Assembly: GCF_009795885.1 (NCBI RefSeq)
Contig: NZ_WTEV01000025.1
Coordinates: forward strand, 1 to 36,473
DNA: 36,473 nt
DNA from: Gilliamella sp. Pas-s25
GTDB lineage: Bacteria; Pseudomonadota; Gammaproteobacteria; Enterobacterales; Orbaceae
Reading direction: 5' to 3'
The notes under the pieces were generated by a model, which had not been told where the DNA came from, searched no databases, and saw nothing but the letters and a program-made list of their open reading frames with translations. Positions 13,729 to 36,473 of this stretch are shown piece after piece. The first letter of the stretch is position 1. Every line of letters begins with the position of its first letter. The translations under genes were made by a program, and so were the position numbers.

Positions 13729-13832
13729 ATATTGAAAATAGAACATACATTTCATTAAAGTGAATGAGATGTATGTTAGATAAAATTAGGTGGTTGCTTT
13801 TTAATCAAGTTATATTATTAAAAGGAGTATTT

Positions 13833-14186
13833 ATGACAAACCTAGAATTGCAAGCTTATCGTCGTTTTCTGATGCTAAAAGTATCAGAAGCTAGCCAATA
13901 TATTGGTAAAACGGATGCTAAAACATGGCATGATTGGGAGAGTGGTACTATACCCGTGCCTGAGTTTGTTGAAATAACAATGCAAAAGCTGAAAAAGCTT
14001 CGCAATGATAAAATTAATATTATTATCAATAGTATCAATGATCGTGTTGGCAGTAATACAATACGCTACTTTATGACATATGAAGAATTTAAAAAAGTGA
14101 ATTCTGATCTAGACGTGGTGCAATGGCGATTACATCAATCAATCGCCACAGAGCTCTATTTTCGTGGTTTAGAAAAACTATGTTAA
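13833..14186 (+). CDS. ydiL: YdiL-like helix-turn-helix protein (DUF1870/Aca2-YdiL family)
   Basis: A 117-residue protein that aligns with E. coli YdiL along its length: LELQAYRRFLML, WHDWESG at the end of the HTH, INDRVGSNTIRYF in the middle and ATELYFRGLEKLC at the C-terminus. The fold resembles xenogeneic HTH regulators such as Aca2; the role of YdiL itself is not known. ATG 13833 is chosen over an upstream in-frame start at 13764 because AAAGGAG (13821-13827) lies five bases before it. In E. coli ydiL sits beside ydiM, ydiN, ydiB and aroD, so its place here between aroE-like and aroL genes is unlikely to be chance. Confidence 0.85.
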   Translation: MTNLELQAYRRFLMLKVSEASQYIGKTDAKTWHDWESGTIPVPEFVEITMQKLKKLRNDKINIIINSINDRVGSNTIRYFMTYEEFKKVNSDLDVVQWRLHQSIATELYFRGLEKLC

Positions 14187-23176: not shown

Positions 23177-24490
23177 GTGGTTTTAATTTTTGCTGGTTTT
23201 ATTGATATATCAACTCCATTTATTCTTCAAAACATGAATCGACCAAAATATTTTTCTCAATATATAGGTATATGTTGTGTTTTGATATCTGTCGTTGCAG
23301 CTTTAAAGGCAATATTATTTCCAATTGTACACCATCTAGGTACGAAAATTGTCGCTGGAAAAGTAGGTGCATCTGTCTCTAAAGTCTATTTCTTTAATAT
23401 TGTTGGCTCAACGCTCGGTAGTTTATTAATTGGGGGTATTTTTCTTGATTATATCTCTATTTCATCAATGTTTATTCTAATTGGTATCGCTTGTATTTTA
23501 TTAGGCGCGTTGATGATAATGAAAAAATCGATGGTGTCTGTTGTCTCTGTTGTTATGCTTGGTAGCTGCTGCTTTTATTTAGTTGATAAACACACAGATT
23601 ATATGTTTAGAAATGCGTTTGAACAAGGAATATCTATCGATTCTTATATTGAAAATCGCTACGGTGTAATTCATATTATCAATGATGATAGGGAGGGCAG
23701 GGAAAATATTATATTAGGTAATAAGATGTATGATGGGATATTAAATATCGATCCAGATATCGATATAAATGATCTAAATCGGCTTTACTTATTAGCGGCA
23801 ATCCACCCAAATCCTAAAAAAGTATTGGTTATTGGCGTGAGTGGTGGAGCATGGACTCGCGCCTTATCAAGTTTTCCAACATTAGAAACCATTGATGCCA
23901 TTGAAATCAATAAAGGTTATCTAAATGTTATTAAACAATATCCTGTTGTTTCACCAATATTAAACGATCCTAAAATCAATATTTACATTGATGACGGTCG
24001 ACGTTGGCTTAAACGAAATAGTAATAAAAAATATGATTTAATCATTATGAATACCACTTATCATTGGCGTTCAGGCGTAACTAATCTATTATCGCAAGAG
24101 ATGATGAAAATAATAAAAAATTCATTAAATCCTGATGGTATTTTGGCATTTAATAGTACTCGTTCACCTGATACATTAAAAACCGCCCAATCGGTATTTA
24201 ACCATGCATATTGGGGGACACTTGGCTTTATTTATGCCTCTGATTCGATGATTAAACTTGATGAAGTTGTTGCTAAAGAGCGCCTCGATAAGTTAGTTTT
24301 AGATGGTAGACCATTGTTTAGCCAAGAATCTAAACAACTTGAAAATGGCGCTTACAAGAAAACATTAGCGACAAAACTATTAAGTTTAGATGAAGTTGAA
24401 AAAATTTATCATTTAGGGCGAGATACGGAAATCATTACCGATAGCAATATGATAACAGAATATAAATATGGACTTTTTGGAAAAAAATAA
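23177..24490 (+). CDS. Membrane-anchored spermidine-synthase-like protein (C-terminal half of the fused MFS/spermidine synthase architecture)
   Basis: Four or five hydrophobic segments (residues about 1-135) include VYFFNIVGSTLGSLLIGG, the second-half signature of fused MFS/spermidine synthase proteins. A spermidine-synthase-type Rossmann domain follows (about 155-400). The family GGGDG loop is GVSGG here (220-224), the acidic EIN is at 243-245, DDGRRW at 272-277, and the catalytic-site Asp after DLII is replaced (DLIIMNTT). True aminopropyl transfer is therefore doubtful. The start is uncertain: GTG 23177 has no well-spaced ribosome-binding site. An ATG at 23130 in another frame would join if the T6 tract at 23162-23167 had one more T. 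The matching N-terminal half is encoded ten bases downstream, in reversed gene order. Confidence 0.7.
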   Translation: MVLIFAGFIDISTPFILQNMNRPKYFSQYIGICCVLISVVAALKAILFPIVHHLGTKIVAGKVGASVSKVYFFNIVGSTLGSLLIGGIFLDYISISSMFILIGIACILLGALMIMKKSMVSVVSVVMLGSCCFYLVDKHTDYMFRNAFEQGISIDSYIENRYGVIHIINDDREGRENIILGNKMYDGILNIDPDIDINDLNRLYLLAAIHPNPKKVLVIGVSGGAWTRALSSFPTLETIDAIEINKGYLNVIKQYPVVSPILNDPKINIYIDDGRRWLKRNSNKKYDLIIMNTTYHWRSGVTNLLSQEMMKIIKNSLNPDGILAFNSTRSPDTLKTAQSVFNHAYWGTLGFIYASDSMIKLDEVVAKERLDKLVLDGRPLFSQESKQLENGAYKKTLATKLLSLDEVEKIYHLGRDTEIITDSNMITEYKYGLFGKK

Positions 24491-24500
24491 GGAACCTTTT

Positions 24501-25115
24501 ATGTTAAGCAAAAAACAATTACTACTATTAAGTACTCTATTTTTTATTTCTGGCATGAGTGGTTTAACTTATCAAGTTGCTTGGCAACGGGCACTTTATT
24601 CGGCTTTTGGGTCCGATGTTGATTCTGTTGCAGTTATTGTATCAGCATTTATGTTAGGACTTGGTTTAGGAGCCCTCGGTGGCGGAAAAATTGTTGATAA
24701 ATACCCGAACAAAGCGCTACAATTTTTTTGTTTTAGTGAATTTGGCATTGGATTATTTGGGCTAATTAGTTATCCGCTTATTTTATTTATCGGCGATATT
24801 TTTATCGTTTATAATTTGGCTGTTGTTGCAATTGTTAATTTTTTATTGGTGCTTGTTCCTACACTTTTGATGGGAGCAACGCTTCCAATTTTAATCACTT
24901 ATATTGCACGATTTTGGAAAAATATTGGTCAAACAACAGGACATCTTTATGCTATCAATACTTATGGCGCAGCAATCGGGGCTGCTTTAACAGGATTCAT
25001 ACTATTTAACTATTTTGGTCTTAATATTGTAACAATATTTGCAGCCTTAGGTAATTTTATGGTCGCGATACTTGCTTATCTATTTTTTAATAAAGCAAAG
25101 ATAGAAAAGAGTTGA
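24501..25115 (+). CDS. Membrane protein, N-terminal half of the fused MFS/spermidine synthase architecture
   Basis: A 204-residue integral membrane protein with about six hydrophobic segments. SGMSGLTYQVAWQRALYSAFGS, FMLGLGLGALGGGKIVDKYP, LLMGATLPIL and GHLYAINTYGAAIGAALTGF are the signatures of the first membrane half of fused MFS/spermidine synthase proteins. It ends after the sixth segment with no synthase domain. ATG 24501 is chosen because AAGGAA (24488-24493) lies seven bases before it. It sits ten bases after the gene for the C-terminal half, so the two are surely co-transcribed and may form one complex. Function unknown. Confidence 0.78.
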   Translation: MLSKKQLLLLSTLFFISGMSGLTYQVAWQRALYSAFGSDVDSVAVIVSAFMLGLGLGALGGGKIVDKYPNKALQFFCFSEFGIGLFGLISYPLILFIGDIFIVYNLAVVAIVNFLLVLVPTLLMGATLPILITYIARFWKNIGQTTGHLYAINTYGAAIGAALTGFILFNYFGLNIVTIFAALGNFMVAILAYLFFNKAKIEKS

Positions 25116-26922: not shown

Positions 26923-26941
26923 TGATTGCATTAATCATCAA
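26919..26941. other. Inverted repeat spanning two convergent gene ends
   Basis: TTGATGATT (26919-26927) and AATCATCAA (26933-26941) are perfect 9-bp arms with a 5-base loop. They overlap the stop codons of the flavoprotein and the activator gene. There is no T-run, so a role in termination is only possible. Confidence 0.4.
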
Positions 26942-28367
26942 TGACACCCATGTGAATATTGTATTTTTTGACCTTATATTGTAGCGTTGTGCGCGAAATA
27001 TTTAATTGTTTTGCGGCCGTGATAATTTTGCCATTGGCCTGATTTAATGCATCAATGATCAGTTGCCGTTCATAGTTCTCAACTTGTTCAGTTAAGTTGT
27101 TTTCATGAGTAGATTTATTGATAGGTGTTTTGTCAGGTTTATGTATCTTATCGTCTTGGAAAAATGAACTGTTAAGTTCAAAGAGCTCTTCATCAAGAGT
27201 AATATGCTGTAATTCACCTGATTTGTTTTGTAATACCATGCTTCTGACAATTGCATTTTCAAGCATACGCACATTACCCGGCCAAGGGGCAGTCATTAAT
27301 TGTTGTAGAGCCTGTTGACTGATACCACTAATTACGACATTAACATCGTTTTTATGTTTATCAATAAAATAGCGTGCTAAAACGGGAATATCTTCTGTTC
27401 TGTCACGTAAAGCGGGAAGTTTTATTAAACCGACATTTAATCGATAAAATAGATCGCTTCTTATTTTTCCTGTTTTTAATAGTTCTGTTGGTGATTCATT
27501 CATGGCAGCAACAATACGAACATCAGAATGCATTTCTTTATTACCACCTAATTGCCAATAAGTTTTTTCTTGTAGAAATCGTAATAACTTACTTTGCATT
27601 TCAAGTGGCATCGCGTTTAATTCGTCAAGAAACAATGTACCGCCATTAGCGAGTTCTAAGTAACCTTGACGGTTTTCAGCACCTGTAAATGCACCCTTGA
27701 CTGTGCCGAACAAAGTACTTTCAATCAGTGTAGTTGGTAATGCTCCACAGTTGAGAGATATGAAGGCTTTATTACGGCGTTGGCTTGTTTGGTGTATTAA
27801 ACGAGCAAATAGCTCTTTACCTGTTCCAGTTTCGCCCACAATTAATACTGGAACATCATTGCGCCCTAACATATTGGTTTGGTCGATAACTTGCTGCATT
27901 TTTTCTGATACAAAAACAATATCGGGTAATGGCTGTTCTTTATTTTGGTATAATTTGCTGTTTAATTTCAAAACTTGATCTTGTAGGTGTCGAACTGCTG
28001 ATAGGTTTCTGCCTATTTCAATAGCACCAATGATCTCTTTTTTATCATTATAAAGTGGAACGGTGGTATGCAAGTAATCAACCACTTTGCCAACATGGTT
28101 ATAATAAGATTGGTAGTTGTCTTGATATTCTTTACCGAGTTGCAAGGCTTGCAACATCGTACTATCTTCCTTTTTTAAATTAGGATAAACCTCAAGCATT
28201 GGTTTGCCAATCGCTTGTTCTTTAGGGTAACCATCCAGTTCAGCACTTTCCTGATTATAATAAATATAATTGCCTTTTTTATCGATGATAGCTATCGGTT
28301 GATGAATTAAATCAAAAAAATGTTTAAATATTTCCAATGCTTGTAATAATTCAGGATCAATGGTCAT
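26931..28367 (-). CDS. Sigma-54-dependent transcriptional activator (PAS-AAA+-Fis HTH)
   Basis: A 478-residue bacterial enhancer-binding protein. A PAS sensor domain covers about residues 10-125. The AAA+ domain has Walker A GETGTGKE (178-185), the sigma-54-contacting GAFTGA (225-230) and Walker B GGTLFLDE (242-249). A Fis-type HTH lies near 450-470 (AAKQLNISRTTLQYKV). The architecture is that of RocR-like activators that respond to small ligands, with no receiver domain. It is divergent from the decarboxylase gene, and the gap holds a sigma-54 promoter and two palindromes, so it most likely activates that cluster. AAGGT about nine bases before the ATG is the ribosome-binding site. Confidence 0.93.
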   Translation of the reverse strand: MTIDPELLQALEIFKHFFDLIHQPIAIIDKKGNYIYYNQESAELDGYPKEQAIGKPMLEVYPNLKKEDSTMLQALQLGKEYQDNYQSYYNHVGKVVDYLHTTVPLYNDKKEIIGAIEIGRNLSAVRHLQDQVLKLNSKLYQNKEQPLPDIVFVSEKMQQVIDQTNMLGRNDVPVLIVGETGTGKELFARLIHQTSQRRNKAFISLNCGALPTTLIESTLFGTVKGAFTGAENRQGYLELANGGTLFLDELNAMPLEMQSKLLRFLQEKTYWQLGGNKEMHSDVRIVAAMNESPTELLKTGKIRSDLFYRLNVGLIKLPALRDRTEDIPVLARYFIDKHKNDVNVVISGISQQALQQLMTAPWPGNVRMLENAIVRSMVLQNKSGELQHITLDEELFELNSSFFQDDKIHKPDKTPINKSTHENNLTEQVENYERQLIIDALNQANGKIITAAKQLNISRTTLQYKVKKYNIHMGVIDD

Positions 28368-28398
28368 GATATTAGTACCTTCAATATTTGGATTATTT

Positions 28399-28410
28399 GC
28401 TAAATTTAGC
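28399..28410. promoter_or_regulatory. Palindrome in the divergent regulatory gap, candidate operator 1
   Basis: GCTAAATTTAGC is a perfect 12-bp palindrome, extendable to near-symmetry by TTT and CAAA flanks. It lies 31 bases upstream of the activator's start codon, where it could bind the activator itself or control its own expression. Confidence 0.45.
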
Positions 28411-28448
28411 CAAATTTAATTTACATTCCTTTCAACCATCATATGAAA

Positions 28449-28466
28449 ATGACAAATTTTTGTCAT
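28449..28466. promoter_or_regulatory. Candidate upstream activating sequence, operator 2
   Basis: ATGACAAATTTTTGTCAT has perfect 8-bp arms around a central TT. It lies about 100 bases upstream of the predicted sigma-54 transcription start, the usual distance for an enhancer-binding protein site. Confidence 0.55.
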
Positions 28467-28546
28467 AAAAACATATTTTGCACTAAATGACTAAATCTTT
28501 ACTTATGCTTTTTTTATTAACAAATTGATTATTTGTAATTTTAAAG

Positions 28547-28563
28547 TTGGCATGCTGATTGCA
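28547..28563 (+). promoter_or_regulatory. Sigma-54 (-24/-12) promoter of the decarboxylase cluster
   Basis: TTGGCATGCTGATTGCA matches the sigma-54 consensus closely. The invariant GG is at 28549-28550 and the invariant GC at 28561-28562, with the required ten bases between. Transcription would start near 28574, about 54 bases before the decarboxylase ATG. Confidence 0.88.
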
Positions 28564-28627
28564 CTATATGTGAGAAACCATTTTTTATTTTTTTGTACTT
28601 TTTATGTACTAATTAACTGGAGGTCAT

Positions 28628-30025
28628 ATGTCCGACGCAATTATGTCAAATTATAACAAATTACGCACAGATCTTGTAACTAAAGATCGCCGTTTCAGTG
28701 CCGAAAACGGTAAATTATGTTTAGATGGCGTTAATTTAGAAGAGTTAGCAAAAAAATATCCTACCCCTTTTTATGTGTTTTCTGAAAAGGAAATTGATCG
28801 TAATGTGCAAGAAATTAAAGATGCATTTAAGGCTCATACGAATACAAAAATTTTCTATGCTTCAAAAACTTGTTCTGTTATGGGCGTGCTAAAAGCGATT
28901 AAAGATGCGGGTATCTATGCTGAGGCGAATTCTATGTTTGAAGTACGCAAATGCTTAGAAATCGGCTTTAGCGGTAGTCAAATTGTGTTTAACGGCGTGG
29001 TAAAAAAACCGGTAGATTTAGAATTTGCTATCCAAAATGATCTGTATATCATCAATGTCGATAGTTTATATGAACTTGATATTATTGATGAAATATCAAC
29101 ACGTTTGAAAAAAGTAGCAAATGTTTGTGTGCGCGTTGAACCGAATGTCCCATCTGCGACTCATGCAGAGCTAGTAACGGCTTATCATGCTAAATCAGGT
29201 ATCGATTTAGAACAAGCAGAAGAGACTTGCCGTCGAATTTTGGATATGCCTTATGTACATTTACGTGGTTTACATATGCATGTAGGGGATCAAGTACCTG
29301 AAGCAGAACCTTTTGCAAAAGCAACTAAAGTATTAGTTGATGAATCACGTCGTTTAGAAGAAGTACTTGGCATTAAATTTGATTTAATCAATGTTGGTGG
29401 TGGCATACCTGTTCCATATAAATATGACGAGGAAAATGGTAACCCATTGCAAGATAATATGTATGCAGGCATAACCGCACAAGACTTTGCTGATGCAGTG
29501 ATTAGCGAAGTGCACAAATGGCGCACCGATGTTGAAATTTGTATTGAACCTGGTCGTAAAGTAACTGGTTCAGCGGGAGTGCTTGTAACTGAAGTTGCCT
29601 GTGAAAAACGTAAAACCAATTACGATTTAGACGGCAACATTGAAGAGCATGTTGAATGGAAATTTGTTGATGCAGGCTATAGTGTTTTGTCTGATAGTCA
29701 GCACTTTGATTGGTTTTTCTATGTTTATAATGCTTCAAAAATCAATGAAGCACATGACGAATACATTAAGCTAGCAGGACCTTTATGTGATGGTGGTGAC
29801 TATTACCATGTTGGTGTGAAAGGTGAAGAGTTCTTAATGCCAAAAGACACTCAAGTTGGTGATATTGTTGCTTTCTTGGATGCCGGTGCTTACACCATTG
29901 AAAGCCAAACAGTCTATAATAATCGTCCTCGCACATCGGTTGTCATGATCGATAAAGACGGCAAAGATAGATTAATTCGTCGTGAAGATACTTACGAAGA
30001 CATGGTTGGATACGATATATACTAA
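28628..30025 (+). CDS. Fold-III PLP decarboxylase, probable D-ornithine/D-lysine decarboxylase (DokD-like)
   Basis: A 465-residue enzyme of the diaminopimelate/ornithine decarboxylase superfamily. The PLP lysine is K80 (FYASKTC), HVGDQ is at 218-222, GGGIP at 257-261, EPGR at 307-310, the catalytic cysteine is C387 ([10 protein letters not shown]), and Y430 lies in VYNNRPR. It differs from canonical LysA (HVGDQ for HIGSQ, CDGGD for C-E-x-x-D) and is longer. Neighbours are a sigma-54 activator, an ornithine-racemase-like enzyme and two amino-acid permeases, a set I recall for the Salmonella D-ornithine/D-lysine decarboxylase locus. The expected reaction is D-ornithine or D-lysine to putrescine or cadaverine; this is inference. 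GGAGG at 28619-28623 precedes the ATG. Confidence 0.75.
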
Positions 30026-30034
30026 TCATCAATT

Positions 30035-30059
30035 ATCTGGGGCATTTTATGCTCCAGAT
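30035..30059 (+). other. Intercistronic hairpin after the decarboxylase gene
   Basis: ATCTGGGGCA (30035-30044) pairs with TGCTCCAGAT (30050-30059) around TTTTA, with one G-T pair. No T-run follows. It could stabilise the upstream mRNA or reduce read-through so that the decarboxylase is made in excess over the permease. Confidence 0.5.
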
Positions 30060-30078
30060 ATTATAATACGAGGTTATT

Positions 30079-31488
30079 ATGAGTGATTCTAAAGATTCAA
30101 GTTTACTTGGTATCAAAGACATTGTGTTTATGAATGTCATTGCGATACTAAGTTTACGCCAAATTCCTAATGTTGCTCCATATGGGGCGTCAGCAATGGT
30201 GCTTTGGCTACTTGCAGCATTTTGTCTATTTTTCCCATTAGCGATGGTTTGTGGTGAGCTTTCAACTGGCTGGCCAAAAGATGGTGGGATTTTTGTTTGG
30301 GTTAAAGAAGCCTTTGGTAAACGCATTGGTTGGATTGTTGTGGTGTGTTTCCTATTCTCGTGTGTGCTGTTCTTCCCGTTAATGTTGCAATTCGGTTTTA
30401 CTGCAATTGGGTACATGTTTAGTGCCGAGTTAGCTCAGAATCAAGTATTTATTGGTGTAGGATCTATGGTTGTATTCTGGATTTTGACACTGATGAATAT
30501 CAAAGGGATGCAATGGACTAAAATTATTAATAGTGTTAGTGCATGGCTTGGTGTATTTATTCCTGCTGCTATTATTGTTGTCTTAGCTATTGTGTGGTTA
30601 TTAATGGGGCACCCTATGGCAACAAGCTATAGTCATGCTAGTGATTGGCTTCCTGATCTAAGTAGTTGGGATACTATCGTATTTTTATCTAGTATGATGT
30701 TTGCATTTGCAGGTCTTGAAGTTGCACCAATGATTGCAGGGCGTACACGAGATCCACAACGCGACTTCCCTAAAGCGATGTTGGTTTCAGCGGTTGTAAT
30801 TGTCGGTATTTATATGGTTGGTACATGGGCTATTAATACTTTATTACCGGCAGCTGATACTGATATTGTAGCGGGTGTTATGCAGGCAATGGAGGCAGCA
30901 GCCAAAGAGTTACATATGCCTTGGTTATTACCAATAATGGCAATTTGCTTATTTTTTGGTGCATTAGGACAAATCAACTCATGGTTAGTTGGTCCTATCT
31001 ATATGCTACAAGAAGCATCAAAAGAAGATAATTTACTTGGCGAACGTATTGGTCGTTTACACCCAGTATACAAAACGCCGGCTTTTGCACTCATTATTCA
31101 AGCCATTATTGTAACTGTACTTTGTTTTTCAACCTTTGTATCACCGAGCATTGCAGCGGCATATTGGATGTTAACTGCATTAACGACAATTTGTTACTTT
31201 ATTCCATATTTAGTGATGTTTATTGCATATTATCGTTTGCGTATTACTCAACCTGATGTACCGCGTAGCTTTAAAATTCCAGGTAAAGTAATGCCGGTTG
31301 TATTACCAGCACTTGGATTCTTATCTACTCTATTTGCAGTGATATTAGTGTTTATTCCTCCTGCCCAAATTGATATGGGGGGGTATGTTGAGTATATCGC
31401 TAAAATTGTTGGTGGTGCCGTGCTTGCTATTGGTTTAGCTGAATGGATCTATTACCGAGCACAAAAACGTAATCGTTTGCAGCAGTAA
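30079..31488 (+). CDS. APC-superfamily amino-acid permease, GadC-like antiporter group
   Basis: A 469-residue transporter with about 12 membrane segments. GELSTGWPKDGGIFVWVKEAFG, GLEVAPMIAGRTRDPQRDFPKAM and INSWLVGPIYMLQEASKE resemble the glutamate:GABA antiporter group (GadC). It starts 53 bases after the decarboxylase, with GAGG before the ATG. The context suggests it exchanges the amino-acid substrate for the decarboxylated diamine; the substrate itself cannot be read from the sequence. Confidence 0.85.
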   Translation: MSDSKDSSLLGIKDIVFMNVIAILSLRQIPNVAPYGASAMVLWLLAAFCLFFPLAMVCGELSTGWPKDGGIFVWVKEAFGKRIGWIVVVCFLFSCVLFFPLMLQFGFTAIGYMFSAELAQNQVFIGVGSMVVFWILTLMNIKGMQWTKIINSVSAWLGVFIPAAIIVVLAIVWLLMGHPMATSYSHASDWLPDLSSWDTIVFLSSMMFAFAGLEVAPMIAGRTRDPQRDFPKAMLVSAVVIVGIYMVGTWAINTLLPAADTDIVAGVMQAMEAAAKELHMPWLLPIMAICLFFGALGQINSWLVGPIYMLQEASKEDNLLGERIGRLHPVYKTPAFALIIQAIIVTVLCFSTFVSPSIAAAYWMLTALTTICYFIPYLVMFIAYYRLRITQPDVPRSFKIPGKVMPVVLPALGFLSTLFAVILVFIPPAQIDMGGYVEYIAKIVGGAVLAIGLAEWIYYRAQKRNRLQQ

Positions 31489-31510
31489 TAATATATAGAG
31501 GAGTAAAAAT

Positions 31511-32617
31511 ATGTACAAGCCTATATTAGAAATTGATTTACGCAAATTAAAAAACAATGCTCGTGTTGAAAAAGATCTGTTAGCTAAACACGGCATTGAA
31601 GTTATGGCCGTTAATAAAGTCTTCGATGGCTGCGTTGAAACGGCCAAAGCCGTCCTTGACGGCGGTATTGATGTGATTGCGGAGTCAAGAACATATAATC
31701 TTAAGAAATTAAAAGATGCTTTAGGTTGTAAAACCTGCTTATTACGTAGCCCTTGTTTAAGCGAAATCAGTGATGTTGTTAAGTATGCAGATATTAGCTT
31801 AAATAGTGAAAAAGCAGTAATTCAAGCACTTTCTGATGAAGCGGTTAAACAACAAAAAGTTCATCAAGTTTTATTAATGGTCGATATGGGGGATTTACGC
31901 GAAGGGATTTGGTTTGAGCATATTGATGAAATTATAGATACGGTTAAACTAATTCTTTCTTTACCAGGTGTTGAGCTTTATGGGCTTGGCACTAATTTTA
32001 ACTGCTATGGTACGGTGCTACCTACAGTTAAAAATGGAGTAGACTTTTTAGAAATAGCGCGTAAAGTAGAACAATCTTGTAATATTAAGATAAAATATTT
32101 ATCGGCCGGTAATTGTACGAGTTACCACTTATTGGACAAAGGTATTTGGCCAGAGGGATTGAATCATTTGAGAATTGGTGGTTTACACGAGTTTGGTATT
32201 GAATATGTAGATATGAAATATCTTGACGAATTTCATCATTCAAATAAACCTGTTGATAAGGCATGTAGTAATATTTATAAATTATATGCGCAAATCATTG
32301 AACTCAATAGTAAACCGACAGTGCCTGTTGGTGAATTAGGTGTAGATGCTTTTTTAAATAGTAAAACCTTTGTTGATCATGGTATACGTAAACGAGCCTT
32401 GTTGGCTTTTGGTCGCCAAGATGTGCCAGCAGAAAGCTGTATACCTATCAATGATGATATTACTGTATTGGGTCAAACCAGTGATCATACGTTGGTCGAC
32501 ATTGAGGATGTTGCTCAAACTCTTCGGGTTGGCGATATGATTGGGTTTGAACTTGATTACACTGCCTTGCTAATGGCTTGTCAAACTAATGGTGTAGAAA
32601 AACGGTTTATTTATTAA
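31511..32617 (+). CDS. Ornithine-racemase-like fold-III PLP enzyme
   Basis: A 368-residue protein of the alanine-racemase-like N-terminal barrel family. The PLP lysine is K36 (MAVNKVFDG). MVDMGDLREGIWF, GLGTNFNCYG, LSAGNCTSY, GELGVDAF and GIRKRALLAFGRQDV match the clostridial ornithine racemase (Orr) group rather than Alr. It would convert L-ornithine (or L-lysine) to the D form for the decarboxylase encoded upstream. GAGGAG lies seven bases before the ATG, 22 bases after the permease stop. A terminator follows it, so the sigma-54 unit may end here. Confidence 0.82.
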   Translation: MYKPILEIDLRKLKNNARVEKDLLAKHGIEVMAVNKVFDGCVETAKAVLDGGIDVIAESRTYNLKKLKDALGCKTCLLRSPCLSEISDVVKYADISLNSEKAVIQALSDEAVKQQKVHQVLLMVDMGDLREGIWFEHIDEIIDTVKLILSLPGVELYGLGTNFNCYGTVLPTVKNGVDFLEIARKVEQSCNIKIKYLSAGNCTSYHLLDKGIWPEGLNHLRIGGLHEFGIEYVDMKYLDEFHHSNKPVDKACSNIYKLYAQIIELNSKPTVPVGELGVDAFLNSKTFVDHGIRKRALLAFGRQDVPAESCIPINDDITVLGQTSDHTLVDIEDVAQTLRVGDMIGFELDYTALLMACQTNGVEKRFIY

Positions 32618-32627
32618 TTTATGTTAG

Positions 32628-32650
32628 CTGCTGGGTAACCAGCAGTTTTT
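32628..32650 (+). terminator. Terminator after the racemase gene
   Basis: CTGCTGG (32628-32634), GTAA loop, CCAGCAG (32639-32645) and five Ts form a good intrinsic terminator. It lies 11 bases after the racemase stop and 22 bases before the next permease gene. Confidence 0.88.
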
Positions 32651-32671
32651 ATTAATTACTAGGCGGTTTAT

Positions 32672-34072
32672 ATGACAACATCTGAATCACAAGAAAGCCC
32701 TTATCCCAGTAGTAATTTAAAGAAAAACTTAAAAAATCGTCATTTGTTGATGATTTCATTAGGTGGATCAATTGGTACCGGATTATTTATTGGTATTGCC
32801 GCTCCACTGAGCACTGTTGGTCCATTAGGCACCATTATTGCTTATTTAATGGCCGGAAGCATAATGCTTTCAACTATGCTATGTTTAGGCGAACTTTCTT
32901 GTGCATTTCCTCATGCCGGTTCATTTCAACACTATGCATTGATGTTTATTCCAAATCCAATTTGGAGCTATACCATAGGCTGGCTGTATTGGCTAAGTTG
33001 GGTTTTGTCTATGGCTGCAGATTTAACTGCTGCTTCAATGATTGCCCACCAAGTTTTCCCTTCGATTCCTATTTATCTTTTTAGTTTGTTAATTCTAATT
33101 GTTATTACTTCAGTACATTTAACTTCTGTTCGTGCATTTGGTGAAAGTGAGTATTGGTTTTCAACCATTAAAGTACTGGCGATTATTGCTTTTATTGGGG
33201 TGGGAATTTATTTACTTTATCATCAATATACCCAAACTGATATCTTACCAACATTCAAAACCCAAAGTGGATGGTTTCCTAATGGCTTTTTAGCCATATT
33301 GGTGTGTATGACTATCGTGACTTACTCATTTCAAGGGGTTGAATTAATTGGTAATGCAGCTGGCGAAGCGCAATCCCCACAGTCGGTATTACCTAAAATT
33401 ATTACTGGTGTGGCTTTTCGCATTATTCTATTTTATATCCTAGCTATTGCTGTATTAGCCCTCGTTTACCCGTATGGAACAGTGCATTCTGAAATTAGTC
33501 CATTTGTGTGGGTATTTAATAAAGCAGGAATTACATTTGCTTCGTATGCGATGCTTTTTGTGATCTTTTGTGCAGCGATATCAGCAACGAATTCAGCCAT
33601 TTATGCCAGTTCAAGAATGCTGTGGTCTATGGCGCAAGATAACTTAGCTCCAAAATACTTTTCTCAAGTCAATCAACGAGGCGTACCAACAAAAGGCATA
33701 TTATTTATTGCAGTTATTGCATTAGTCTCACTATTTTCGAAATATATTGCCGCTGAAAAATTATATATTTATTTAGTAGCAGGTACAGGACAAGTGGGCT
33801 GTTTTGCATGGATAATCATTGCTTGGTGTCAGTATCAATTTCGTAAGGGTGTAAATAGCGGCAAATATCCAAAAGAAATGATAAAATTTAAATCACCGCT
33901 ATTTCCTTGGCTTGCTGGTGTTTCTATCATTGTTAATGTTGTGATTATTATTGGGGTTTGGTTTGGTGAGTCAGGTTATTTTATTTTACTTTCTGAAATA
34001 ATATTAATTGCGATCATTCTAATATCTTATTTTTTCTATAAAAAACGAATTGTTTCAATAAGTCATAATTAA
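32672..34072 (+). CDS. Amino-acid permease, AAT family (LysP-like)
   Basis: A 466-residue, 12-segment permease. The AAT signature LKKNLKNRHLLMISLGGSIGTGLFIG is followed by LGELSCAFPHAGSF, SVRAFGESEYWFSTIKV and FQGVELIGNAAGEAQSP. The conserved FGESEYWFS loop resembles basic amino-acid permeases such as LysP, which would fit ornithine or lysine uptake, but the family also carries aromatic and other amino acids. It lies just behind the terminator at 32628, so it is expressed by read-through or from its own promoter, which I did not find in the short gap. Confidence 0.85.
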   Translation: MTTSESQESPYPSSNLKKNLKNRHLLMISLGGSIGTGLFIGIAAPLSTVGPLGTIIAYLMAGSIMLSTMLCLGELSCAFPHAGSFQHYALMFIPNPIWSYTIGWLYWLSWVLSMAADLTAASMIAHQVFPSIPIYLFSLLILIVITSVHLTSVRAFGESEYWFSTIKVLAIIAFIGVGIYLLYHQYTQTDILPTFKTQSGWFPNGFLAILVCMTIVTYSFQGVELIGNAAGEAQSPQSVLPKIITGVAFRIILFYILAIAVLALVYPYGTVHSEISPFVWVFNKAGITFASYAMLFVIFCAAISATNSAIYASSRMLWSMAQDNLAPKYFSQVNQRGVPTKGILFIAVIALVSLFSKYIAAEKLYIYLVAGTGQVGCFAWIIIAWCQYQFRKGVNSGKYPKEMIKFKSPLFPWLAGVSIIVNVVIIIGVWFGESGYFILLSEIILIAIILISYFFYKKRIVSISHN

Positions 34073-35076: not shown

Positions 35077-36473
35077 CTAAGTCGGTTTCAATACGTCTAA
35101 CTTCAGTGCATGAACTTTAGTATGACATACAGGATGTAATAAAACCCTGTTTTTCAGCTTATTATCCCCGCCATTTACACGGTATATGATATGGTGGTCA
35201 TGCCAGCCCGTCTCTTTTGTGATAGGGAGATGACATAATCCACAACGCCCTTTTTGTTCCTTATACAACATTTGCCATTGTCTTCTGTGTGAATAGTTCT
35301 CATACATCCGTTTTTGGTATAATGTTTCACCGTATAATTCCCATTCAGGTAAAAATGGGTTGTACTCCGATTTTACCTTTATATGACGTTTAATTCCTGT
35401 CTTACTACAGAGCAGTAATTCAGTCCATATCTTTTCACCATGCCGATTCGTTGTATGTGTGCCAAATATCCAGTCCCTGCTTTGTATCTTTGTAAAGTAT
35501 TTCGCTTTAACAAATCGTTTCCGCCTGTTACTGTGTCTTCGACAACACCATCGCCAAATCGCTTGCCAGACTAAATGGTCTACTTTACTAAACGTATCTT
35601 TGGCTACAATGCTACGATGATAGTTAGCCCATCCCCTTAACATTGGATTTAACTTTCCTATTAATATGTCTTGTTTAACCATCTTCATGGCACTTATTGT
35701 TTCTTTCACCTTGCGATAGAATGCTTTCACATTCTTTTTACTTGGTTTAATCAACAATTTGCCTTTAAATGATTTCACCGTCCAACCGAGAAAGTCAAAA
35801 CCTTGTTCAATATGCACAATGTGTGTCTTTCTTTCTGAAAGCGTTAATCCTCTCTCTTTAAGAAATTCACGCACCAACGGTATTACTTCATTTATCAGTA
35901 GCTCTTTCGAACTTCCCGATATAATAAAGTCATCTGCATATCTTACCATGTGCGTTTTATTTTTGGCAAATTTTCTACTTCTTTTGTCACCAAATTCCTG
36001 TAACAACTCCGCTTCTAATCCATCTAACGCCATGTTTGCCAAAGTTGGTGATATTATTCCGCCCTGTGGCGTTCCCTCCACCGTTTGTTTGACCTGTCCC
36101 ATATCTACAACCCCTGATTTTAACCACTTTGTTAATATCCGTTTATTTATCGGTATATTATTAATTAACCAATCATGGCTAATATGGTCAAAACAGCCCT
36201 GTATATCTGCATCTAGTACCCACTGTGCTGATTTCTTGTTCCTACTTCCACCAGTTGTGAATATTCGATGTATATGCTCTATTGCATCTGCCGTTGAACG
36301 GTTAATGCGAAAGCCATACGAGCTTTTATCCGCAGTTGTTTCTGCAACAGGCTGTAAAGCAAATAAATACAGCGCTTGCATTGCTCTATCTTTCATGGTC
36401 GGAATGCCTAAAGGGCGCTTCTTTCCGTCAGACTTGGGAATATAAACTCGCCTTAACGGCATGGGTTTATATC
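35077..36473 (-). CDS. ltrA: Group II intron reverse transcriptase/maturase with HNH endonuclease (5' end outside window)
   Basis: Multifunctional protein that reverse-transcribes and helps splice the intron. The frame is open through the window edge, so the N-terminus is missing; the internal ATG at 36462 is not the true start because YKPMPLRRVYIPK continues upstream. The polymerase motif YADD is in MVRYADDFIISG. The maturase (X) domain shows LNPMLRGWANYHR. The C-terminal HNH endonuclease has the paired cysteines CGLC and the HDHHI...N...LLHPVCH pattern. No stop or frameshift is visible in the visible part, so the element may be active. The stop lies 22 bases before domain V. Confidence 0.93.
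   Translation of the reverse strand, partial: YKPMPLRRVYIPKSDGKKRPLGIPTMKDRAMQALYLFALQPVAETTADKSSYGFRINRSTADAIEHIHRIFTTGGSRNKKSAQWVLDADIQGCFDHISHDWLINNIPINKRILTKWLKSGVVDMGQVKQTVEGTPQGGIISPTLANMALDGLEAELLQEFGDKRSRKFAKNKTHMVRYADDFIISGSSKELLINEVIPLVREFLKERGLTLSERKTHIVHIEQGFDFLGWTVKSFKGKLLIKPSKKNVKAFYRKVKETISAMKMVKQDILIGKLNPMLRGWANYHRSIVAKDTFSKVDHLVWQAIWRWCCRRHSNRRKRFVKAKYFTKIQSRDWIFGTHTTNRHGEKIWTELLLCSKTGIKRHIKVKSEYNPFLPEWELYGETLYQKRMYENYSHRRQWQMLYKEQKGRCGLCHLPITKETGWHDHHIIYRVNGGDNKLKNRVLLHPVCHTKVHALKLDVLKPT

Follow-up and report, generated by a model that had tools for sequence, protein, structure and literature searches.

In Escherichia coli, the Cad system (CadA, CadB, LysP and CadC) joins a permease, a decarboxylase and an antiporter into a route that makes a diamine and consumes a proton, as described in PMC12764776. 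In Salmonella, a set of racemase, decarboxylase and antiporter genes is encoded by STM2361 and STM2360-STM2357, with DokD as the decarboxylase of D-ornithine and D-lysine. A sigma-54 array table gives STM2360-56 a value of 100, names STM2361 as the predicted activator and shows the promoter TGGCATGCCTTTTGCTTT (PMC3844500); in a 2016 review the binding site and the signal of STM2361 are listed as not known (PMC4987338). Mutants of Salmonella DokD at C387 have been published, and a Y430F mutant appears as a title in the reference list of the same paper (PMC13294871).

Here we analyzed a stretch of 36,473 nucleotides from Gilliamella sp. Pas-s25 (contig NZ_WTEV01000025.1, assembly GCF_009795885.1), referred to as the window, which carries a dokD operon of this type. 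The source genome comprises 2.81 Mb in 109 contigs and is rated 100% complete. Since Salmonella already provides an example of such a set, its type is not novel. Among the open-access papers searched, none linked Gilliamella to the DokD pathway.

The best explanation of the five-gene set is an inducible module that turns an amino acid into a diamine, a reading we consider rather probable. A permease of the amino acid-polyamine-organocation (APC) family would import one of the basic amino acids L-ornithine and L-lysine, which the racemase-family enzyme would convert to the D form. DokD would then form putrescine from D-ornithine, or cadaverine from D-lysine, in a decarboxylation that consumes a cytoplasmic proton, and the GadC-like protein would export the diamine against more amino acid, resulting in acid protection and/or proton-motive force; we infer the substrates and the direction of transport of both carriers. 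The activator would sense a ligand, its presumed inducer, via the PAS domain, bind a palindrome (28450-28465) and open the sigma-54 promoter (28548-28563). At the level of the sequence, the gene content, the identity of DokD, the promoter and the conserved palindrome are established.

The five-gene locus and its Salmonella counterpart

Five uninterrupted open reading frames (ORFs) were found between 26931 and 34072, exactly where an earlier reading of the DNA (the original prediction) had placed a complete cluster of adjacent genes. Comparison with Salmonella enterica (L029) confirmed the proposed resemblance to the DokD locus: STM2361 and STM2360-STM2357 are the same five genes, arranged and oriented alike. 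Identity amounts to 83% for DokD, 81% for the GadC-like protein, 76% for the racemase, 59% for the permease and 58% for the activator. The sigma-54 promoter has the same form, and the palindrome matches at 15/16 positions, starting 97 bp before the promoter. A Salmonella Infantis record contains the activator, dokD, the racemase and the permease, with a gap at the GadC-like slot (the gene table is incomplete); a ubiX-type gene follows there, whereas in the window the permease gene is followed by a convergent marC. The order of the five genes is beyond chance. The dokD loci nearest to the window are from Gilliamella, and its DokD is 100% identical to those of Gilliamella sp. App6-5 and G. mensalis.

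With the Cad system the locus shares an uptake permease, a decarboxylase and an antiporter that together yield a diamine and use a proton (PMC12764776). The two differ in enzyme, regulator and antiporter. DokD is a decarboxylase of the alanine-racemase fold and needs a racemase; it does not have the PF01276 fold, which we take to be that of SpeC and CadA. CadC is replaced by a sigma-54 activator as regulator, and the candidate antiporter resembles GadC, with PRK10435, the model of CadB, absent from its matches. Coordinates are collected in Table 1.

Table 1. Features of the dokD locus in the window.
Feature	Position	Strand	Evidence
Sigma-54 enhancer-binding activator, STM2361 counterpart	26931-28367	-	Pfam PAS_4, Sigma54_activat 214.8 bits, HTH_8
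Palindrome TGACAAATTTTTGTCA, putative enhancer to which the divergent activator would bind	28450-28465		98 bp from its start to that of the -24 element
Sigma-54 -24/-12 promoter TGGCATGCTGATTGCA	28548-28563	+	12/12 specified positions
dokD, D-ornithine/D-lysine decarboxylase	28628-30025	+	NF052544 equivalog 886.2 bits
Stem-loop, junction of dokD and GadC-like gene	30034-30060	+	junction fold -16.9 kcal/mol
GadC-like APC protein, proposed diamine/amino acid antiporter	30079-31488	+	AA_permease_2 206.5 bits
Alanine/ornithine-racemase-family pyridoxal phosphate (PLP) enzyme	31511-32617	+	NF040742 Orr 365.3 bits
Terminator-like stem-loop, junction of racemase and permease genes	32626-32647	+	9-bp stem, 5 G-C pairs, T-rich tail
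APC-family permease, proposed basic amino acid uptake	32672-34072	+	AA_permease 322.5 bits

The decarboxylase is DokD

As a threshold for DokD identity we used the NCBIfam equivalog NF052544 with its cut-off of 700 bits. Because the product of 28628-30025 reaches 886.2 bits, its assignment to DokD by profile score is secure, bearing out the DokD-like decarboxylase of the original prediction. Of the solved structures it matches 6n2h, a decarboxylase of D-ornithine and D-lysine, best (E 1.5e-270), and C387 and Y430 of Salmonella DokD are both present with identical numbering. Decarboxylation of D-ornithine and D-lysine is known from the Salmonella counterpart and is, by analogy, expected of the Gilliamella enzyme.

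LysA belongs to the same fold III family, and the window DokD scores 300.9 bits on TIGR01048, barely above the cut-off of 297.9. A second LysA was nevertheless ruled out: the protein reaches 886 bits as DokD versus 301 as LysA, and the genome has a separate LysA with 530.6 bits on TIGR01048 and only 214.6 on the DokD model. The motif CDGGD stands in the window DokD where the genome's own LysA has CESSD. Activity on meso-diaminopimelate alone, named with the original prediction as the finding that would speak against it, is unlikely because of this separate LysA. One Gilliamella genome contains a LysA-like match with two in-frame stops (G004:C22:75429-76691).

A sigma-54 promoter and a conserved palindrome upstream of dokD

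The activator consists of a PAS domain, an AAA+ domain with the motif GAFTGA (read in translation) and a Fis-type helix-turn-helix (HTH), and rpoN is present in the genome. Activator domains and promoter match both support the sigma-54 control that had been predicted; sigma-54 dependence of the operon is known from the Salmonella counterpart and would apply here by analogy. The promoter pattern TGGCAYRNNNNTTGCW has its sole exact match in the window at 28548-28563, 80 bp before dokD, in a form that matches the published STM2360 promoter. When one mismatch is allowed there are three matches versus 2.0 expected, and the weight of the promoter therefore rests on its position and conservation.

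The palindrome in Table 1 is likewise the sole exact match of its pattern in the window (with up to three mismatches, four matches versus 2.7 expected). In Gilliamella and Enterobacterales, the distance from the start of the palindrome TGACRAATTTTYGTCA to the start of the -24 element that follows it is 96-99 bp. Upstream DNA was available for 25 Gilliamella rows, one of them the window; in 24 of these a 12/12 sigma-54 match is combined with a palindrome of 13-16/16 at a spacing of 97-99. The ten Enterobacterales rows have a palindrome of 12-16/16 at 96-98, with a sigma-54 match of 12/12 in eight rows and of 11/12 and 10/12 in the others. The two Edwardsiella loci (L027, L028) reach only 12/16, a value attained by 8 and 19 of 200 shuffles, respectively; in both, the same spacing (about 170 bp upstream of dokD) is occupied by a perfect palindrome whose arms are longer and altered in sequence. 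Co-variation of the activator HTH with these altered arms was ruled out, the helix being nearly unchanged. At this spacing, the palindrome was not found in Sutterella, Photobacterium and Syntrophomonadaceae.

The consensus of the palindrome was derived from these same upstream regions, and their match is thus partly circular; the independent test is the search of whole genomes. The pattern has 24 exact matches across 44 Orbaceae genomes, every one of them within approximately 200 bp upstream of dokD, and matches with one mismatch precede five more dokD genes. Elsewhere in these genomes, one-mismatch rows number 21, compared to 39 rows for a backward control pattern (counted by hand), and no second target stands out. 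Altogether, 28 of the 31 full-length dokD genes and the split dokD of G032 are preceded by a palindrome with at most one mismatch. The palindrome is the presumed binding site of the activator.

A locus of Gilliamella sp. Choc4-2 (L022, 7380-8010) has no activator gene; its promoter has lost the GG of the -24 element (9/12) and its palindrome is down to 13/16, while the operon proteins are still 87-95% identical.

These data also bear on the nitrogen control that had been part of the original prediction. In such a reading the operon would belong to the NtrC regulon and serve nitrogen supply under starvation. Sigma-54 often serves nitrogen genes. Moreover, argT (STM2355), a neighbour of the operon in Salmonella, is NtrC-controlled according to PMC4987338. 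A sigma-54 activator alone does not imply NtrC control, however, and the claim found no support: at up to three mismatches no NtrC-like site occurs within 28368-28627 (five in the window versus 6.8 expected by chance), and the palindrome conserved in this region is unlike that of NtrC. In the locus that lacks the activator gene (L022), both the promoter and the palindrome have decayed, and published tables place the Salmonella operon under STM2361, not NtrC (PMC3844500, PMC4987338). We regard a nitrogen-starvation route as very improbable.

Racemase and transporters

The racemase-family protein has the ornithine racemase Orr as its best model, as the original prediction had suggested; its score on NF040742 of 365.3 bits (model positions 2-350 of 351, nearly the full length) stays below the cut-off of 480, as do those of its counterparts in four other loci (353.5-376.7 bits). 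Clostridial Orr serves D-ornithine breakdown. It differs from the window protein, which scores below the Orr cut-off and is encoded together with a decarboxylase gene. A structure model of the 368-residue protein, built from 15 orthologs (mean predicted local distance difference test score 81.5), was compared to known structures with Foldseek. The best matches include the alanine racemase 5yyc (E 5.4e-20, template modelling score (TM) 0.75, 391 columns), the lysine racemase 4dza (E 1.9e-18, TM 0.73, 405 columns) and broad-specificity racemases, supporting an alanine-racemase fold; the first two alignments extend over most of the protein. Lys36 and Arg221 are invariant in all 15 orthologs, and Lys36 is probably the PLP lysine because of the VNK motif in which it lies. 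When its profile was compared with that of E. coli Alr, the alignment was confined to the N-terminal part, residues 1-137, at a probability of 1.1. The presumed substrate is L-ornithine or L-lysine.

For the GadC-like protein, GadC is the best model as proposed, yet the scores on the GadC equivalogs fall short of their cut-offs (321.4 versus 650 bits for TIGR03813, 302.0 versus 640 for NF053662 and 191.6 versus 673.5 for TIGR00910); in the PDB it matches GadC 4dji (E 1.1e-45). The permease matches LysP 9eyd (E 1.2e-75), and its predicted likeness to LysP holds at 35% identity to the E. coli protein, but is equalled by 36% to MmuP (GabP: 31%). On PRK10836, which we take to be the LysP model, it scores 296.9 bits with a cut-off of 735, and the S-methylmethionine permease model scores higher (322.2).

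Several of these observations weigh against an amino-acid-to-diamine module. Racemase, GadC-like protein and permease each lie below all substrate-specific NCBIfam cut-offs, and the permease is equally near to MmuP and LysP. Eight functional-site residues of Pseudomonas aeruginosa LysP, forming the lysine site and the proton coupling, are named in PMC12764776. Of this set, the permease keeps four (Trp105, Lys162, Ser216 and Gln218), which speaks for the module, and changes the others (N104 to S, E112 to D, F215 to Y and S377 to T). E. coli LysP keeps 7/8, GabP 6/8 and MmuP 4/8. Judged by this alignment, the eight-residue signature does not by itself mark lysine carriers, because GabP, a gamma-aminobutyrate carrier, keeps six and the window permease four. 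Where LysP has Asn/Ser as the pair proposed to set lysine specificity, each of the 12 rows compared has Ser/Thr, and a permease substrate different from lysine is therefore possible. As to the racemase, its fold is common to D-threonine aldolase and beta-hydroxyaspartate aldolase, and no counterpart could be placed in it for Tyr265 of alanine racemase, presumably the second catalytic base of that enzyme. In the Gilliamella locus L023 the palindrome is at 13/16 (reached by 7/200 shuffles) and yet activator and promoter are kept, so that the loss in L022 appears to link the activator more firmly with the promoter than with the palindrome. Finally, neither enzyme assays nor measurements of expression or transport were found for Gilliamella.

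Distribution of dokD loci

A scan of 84,980 species genomes with short exact patterns, which detect close relatives only, yielded at least 51 dokD loci; these were sorted into classes by hand, and the counts are lower bounds. The same five-gene order with a divergent activator is present in 33 loci (22 Gilliamella, 9 Enterobacterales and 2 Syntrophomonadaceae); the Enterobacterales loci include two Salmonella enterica subspecies and one locus in frame-shifted pieces (L035). Three loci (two Sutterella and Photobacterium) have a four-gene operon with the activator downstream, one (L022) has no activator, two are contig fragments and one (Veillonellaceae) has the GadC-like, racemase and dokD genes only. 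In the remaining 11, dokD stands without these partner genes. Because the five genes are kept together in Gilliamella, Enterobacterales and Syntrophomonadaceae, the comparison indicates that they act as a unit. Loci without the racemase are also without both transporter relatives, except for the cut-off fragment L054.

Neighbouring genes were scanned at five of the 11 partner-less loci, covering some ORFs per locus. In Brenneria (L033, 7164-7937) and Aquitalea (L044, 9426-10271), dokD lies beside a gene for an extracellular amino-acid binding protein (SBP_bac_3), with no racemase; two Desulfobacterium loci have a GGDEF protein beside dokD, and at L049 neither kind of neighbour was present among the ORFs scanned. 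The DokD proteins of L033 (862 bits), L044 (726 bits) and L040 are all above the DokD cut-off.

The two loci with a binding protein fit an uptake of ready-made D-amino acids, as if the D form were external, and thus keep alive a salvage of D-amino acids. The permease would then take up D-ornithine or D-lysine from gut bacteria or peptidoglycan and DokD would remove them, with the racemase working mainly from D to L and feeding metabolism. Racemases run in both directions, which suits such a role. However, racemase and GadC-like genes, the latter a typical amine-export partner of amino-acid decarboxylases, accompany dokD at 39 of the 51 loci, and binding proteins were found at only two of the five partner-less loci scanned, where neighbours were partly covered. 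We consider salvage quite unlikely and favour the amino-acid-to-diamine module.

Within the family, DokD is above the cut-off in 31 of 35 Gilliamella genomes and in none of nine other Orbaceae. At 90% completeness or more, 28 of 30 Gilliamella genomes have it, the exceptions being G028 and G029 (99% complete); also without a full DokD are G032, where it is split across two contigs, and G033 (59% complete). Horizontal transfer is suggested by this contrast between Gilliamella and the other Orbaceae, but the five genes have a G+C content of 0.35-0.39, near the 0.36 of the window, DokD, the GadC-like protein and the racemase evolve slowly, and the trees leave deep forks open. A mobile origin was rejected. 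Among 299 plasmid records matched only three exceed 60% identity, all of them Salmonella replicons of about 500 kb, and among 18 phage records only one does, a short unannotated Salmonella record. In 5,426 E. coli genomes blastn gave no match, whether the query gene came from Gilliamella or from Salmonella.

Diamine-forming decarboxylases in Gilliamella

In contrast to the Salmonella type, none of the 35 Gilliamella genomes has a SpeC/CadA-type decarboxylase over the cut-off: PF01276 was found in 0/35, and in 3/9 other Orbaceae, all of one genus. An 18-bit PF01276 match in the genome of the window proved to be serine hydroxymethyltransferase (664 bits, cut-off 335). Gilliamella genomes contain at most two PF02784 proteins each, which in the window's own genome are LysA and DokD only; among the nine other Orbaceae, a second PF02784 protein is present only in G042, as an open frame of 641 amino acids, the size of SpeA. 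PF00282, searched in the own genome only, gave no match. DokD is thus the only diamine-forming decarboxylase found in Gilliamella in a search that covered PF01276 and PF02784 in 35 genomes and PF00282 in the own genome, but not pyruvoyl arginine decarboxylase, the agmatine pathway or polyamine import.

S-adenosylmethionine (AdoMet) decarboxylase (PF02675) is absent from all 44 Orbaceae genomes searched and gave no match in the own genome. The route to polyamines that had been predicted is accordingly retained for the diamine and dropped for spermidine made via this enzyme. In the window, a protein resembling a major facilitator superfamily (MFS)/spermidine synthase fusion is encoded by two adjacent ORFs (23177-25115), the synthase-bearing part first and an N-terminal-like membrane part second; the pair lies side by side in five Gilliamella loci (L004, L009, L010, L013 and L037). 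A role further down a polyamine pathway was considered for it and dropped, because the search brought up no AdoMet decarboxylase that could supply its substrate.

Being the only such decarboxylase found, DokD might primarily supply putrescine or cadaverine for the cell's own use, with the GadC-like protein mainly recycling. Gilliamella G028 and G029 do without dokD, however, and five of the nine other Orbaceae (G001, G002, G040, G041 and G043) have no DokD, PF01276 or second PF02784 protein; Orbaceae can thus do without such enzymes, which argues against an essential role. The dedicated sigma-54 activator and the GadC-like partner in turn point to induced export, and we judge the supply of the cell's own diamines to be unlikely. 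Because no SpeC-, SpeA- or CadA-type enzymes were found, the racemase-DokD route may nevertheless be the only home-made source of putrescine or cadaverine in Gilliamella, with an obligatory D-amino-acid intermediate, a proposal that we hold to be rather doubtful. PMC7857480, which cites two DokD papers, deems a D-ornithine decarboxylase unlikely in polyamine metabolism; a sole-source role, if true, would contradict the view expressed there.

Stem-loops at the gene junctions

Both junctions between an enzyme gene and the following transporter gene carry a stem-loop whose sequence varies among genera while the structure is kept. We compared 12 loci (window, L006, L015, L022, L024, L025, L027, L029, L030, L034, L038 and L042). 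The folding energy lies in the lowest 5% of 200 shuffles in 11/12 loci at the dokD/GadC-like junction and in 11/12 at the racemase/permease junction; at the GadC-like/racemase junction a low fold was found in one of eight testable loci, where the 30-base stretches partly cover the end of the preceding gene. In the window, none of 200 shuffles folds as low as the dokD/GadC-like junction, and five of 200 reach the fold of the racemase/permease junction. Terminator-like sites in the region (five versus 5.4 expected) are not above chance. The junction stem-loops may lower the expression of the membrane proteins.

Other features of the window

An ORF for a group II intron reverse transcriptase/maturase lies on the minus strand near the end of the window (35077-36462), and a small Aca2/YdiL-like protein is encoded at 13764-14186, between two shikimate-pathway genes.

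Implications for Gilliamella

Two points are new here: the enhancer-like palindrome, and the result that a search of the families covered brought up no other diamine-forming decarboxylase in Gilliamella. With the palindrome, binding of the activator can be tested directly. Gilliamella, a symbiont of bees, can be cultured in the laboratory. With no SpeC/CadA-type decarboxylase over the cut-off, it allows the role of the operon to be tested free of that background. Should diamines from this operon reach the gut of the bee, their origin in Gilliamella could be assigned to a single genetic source.

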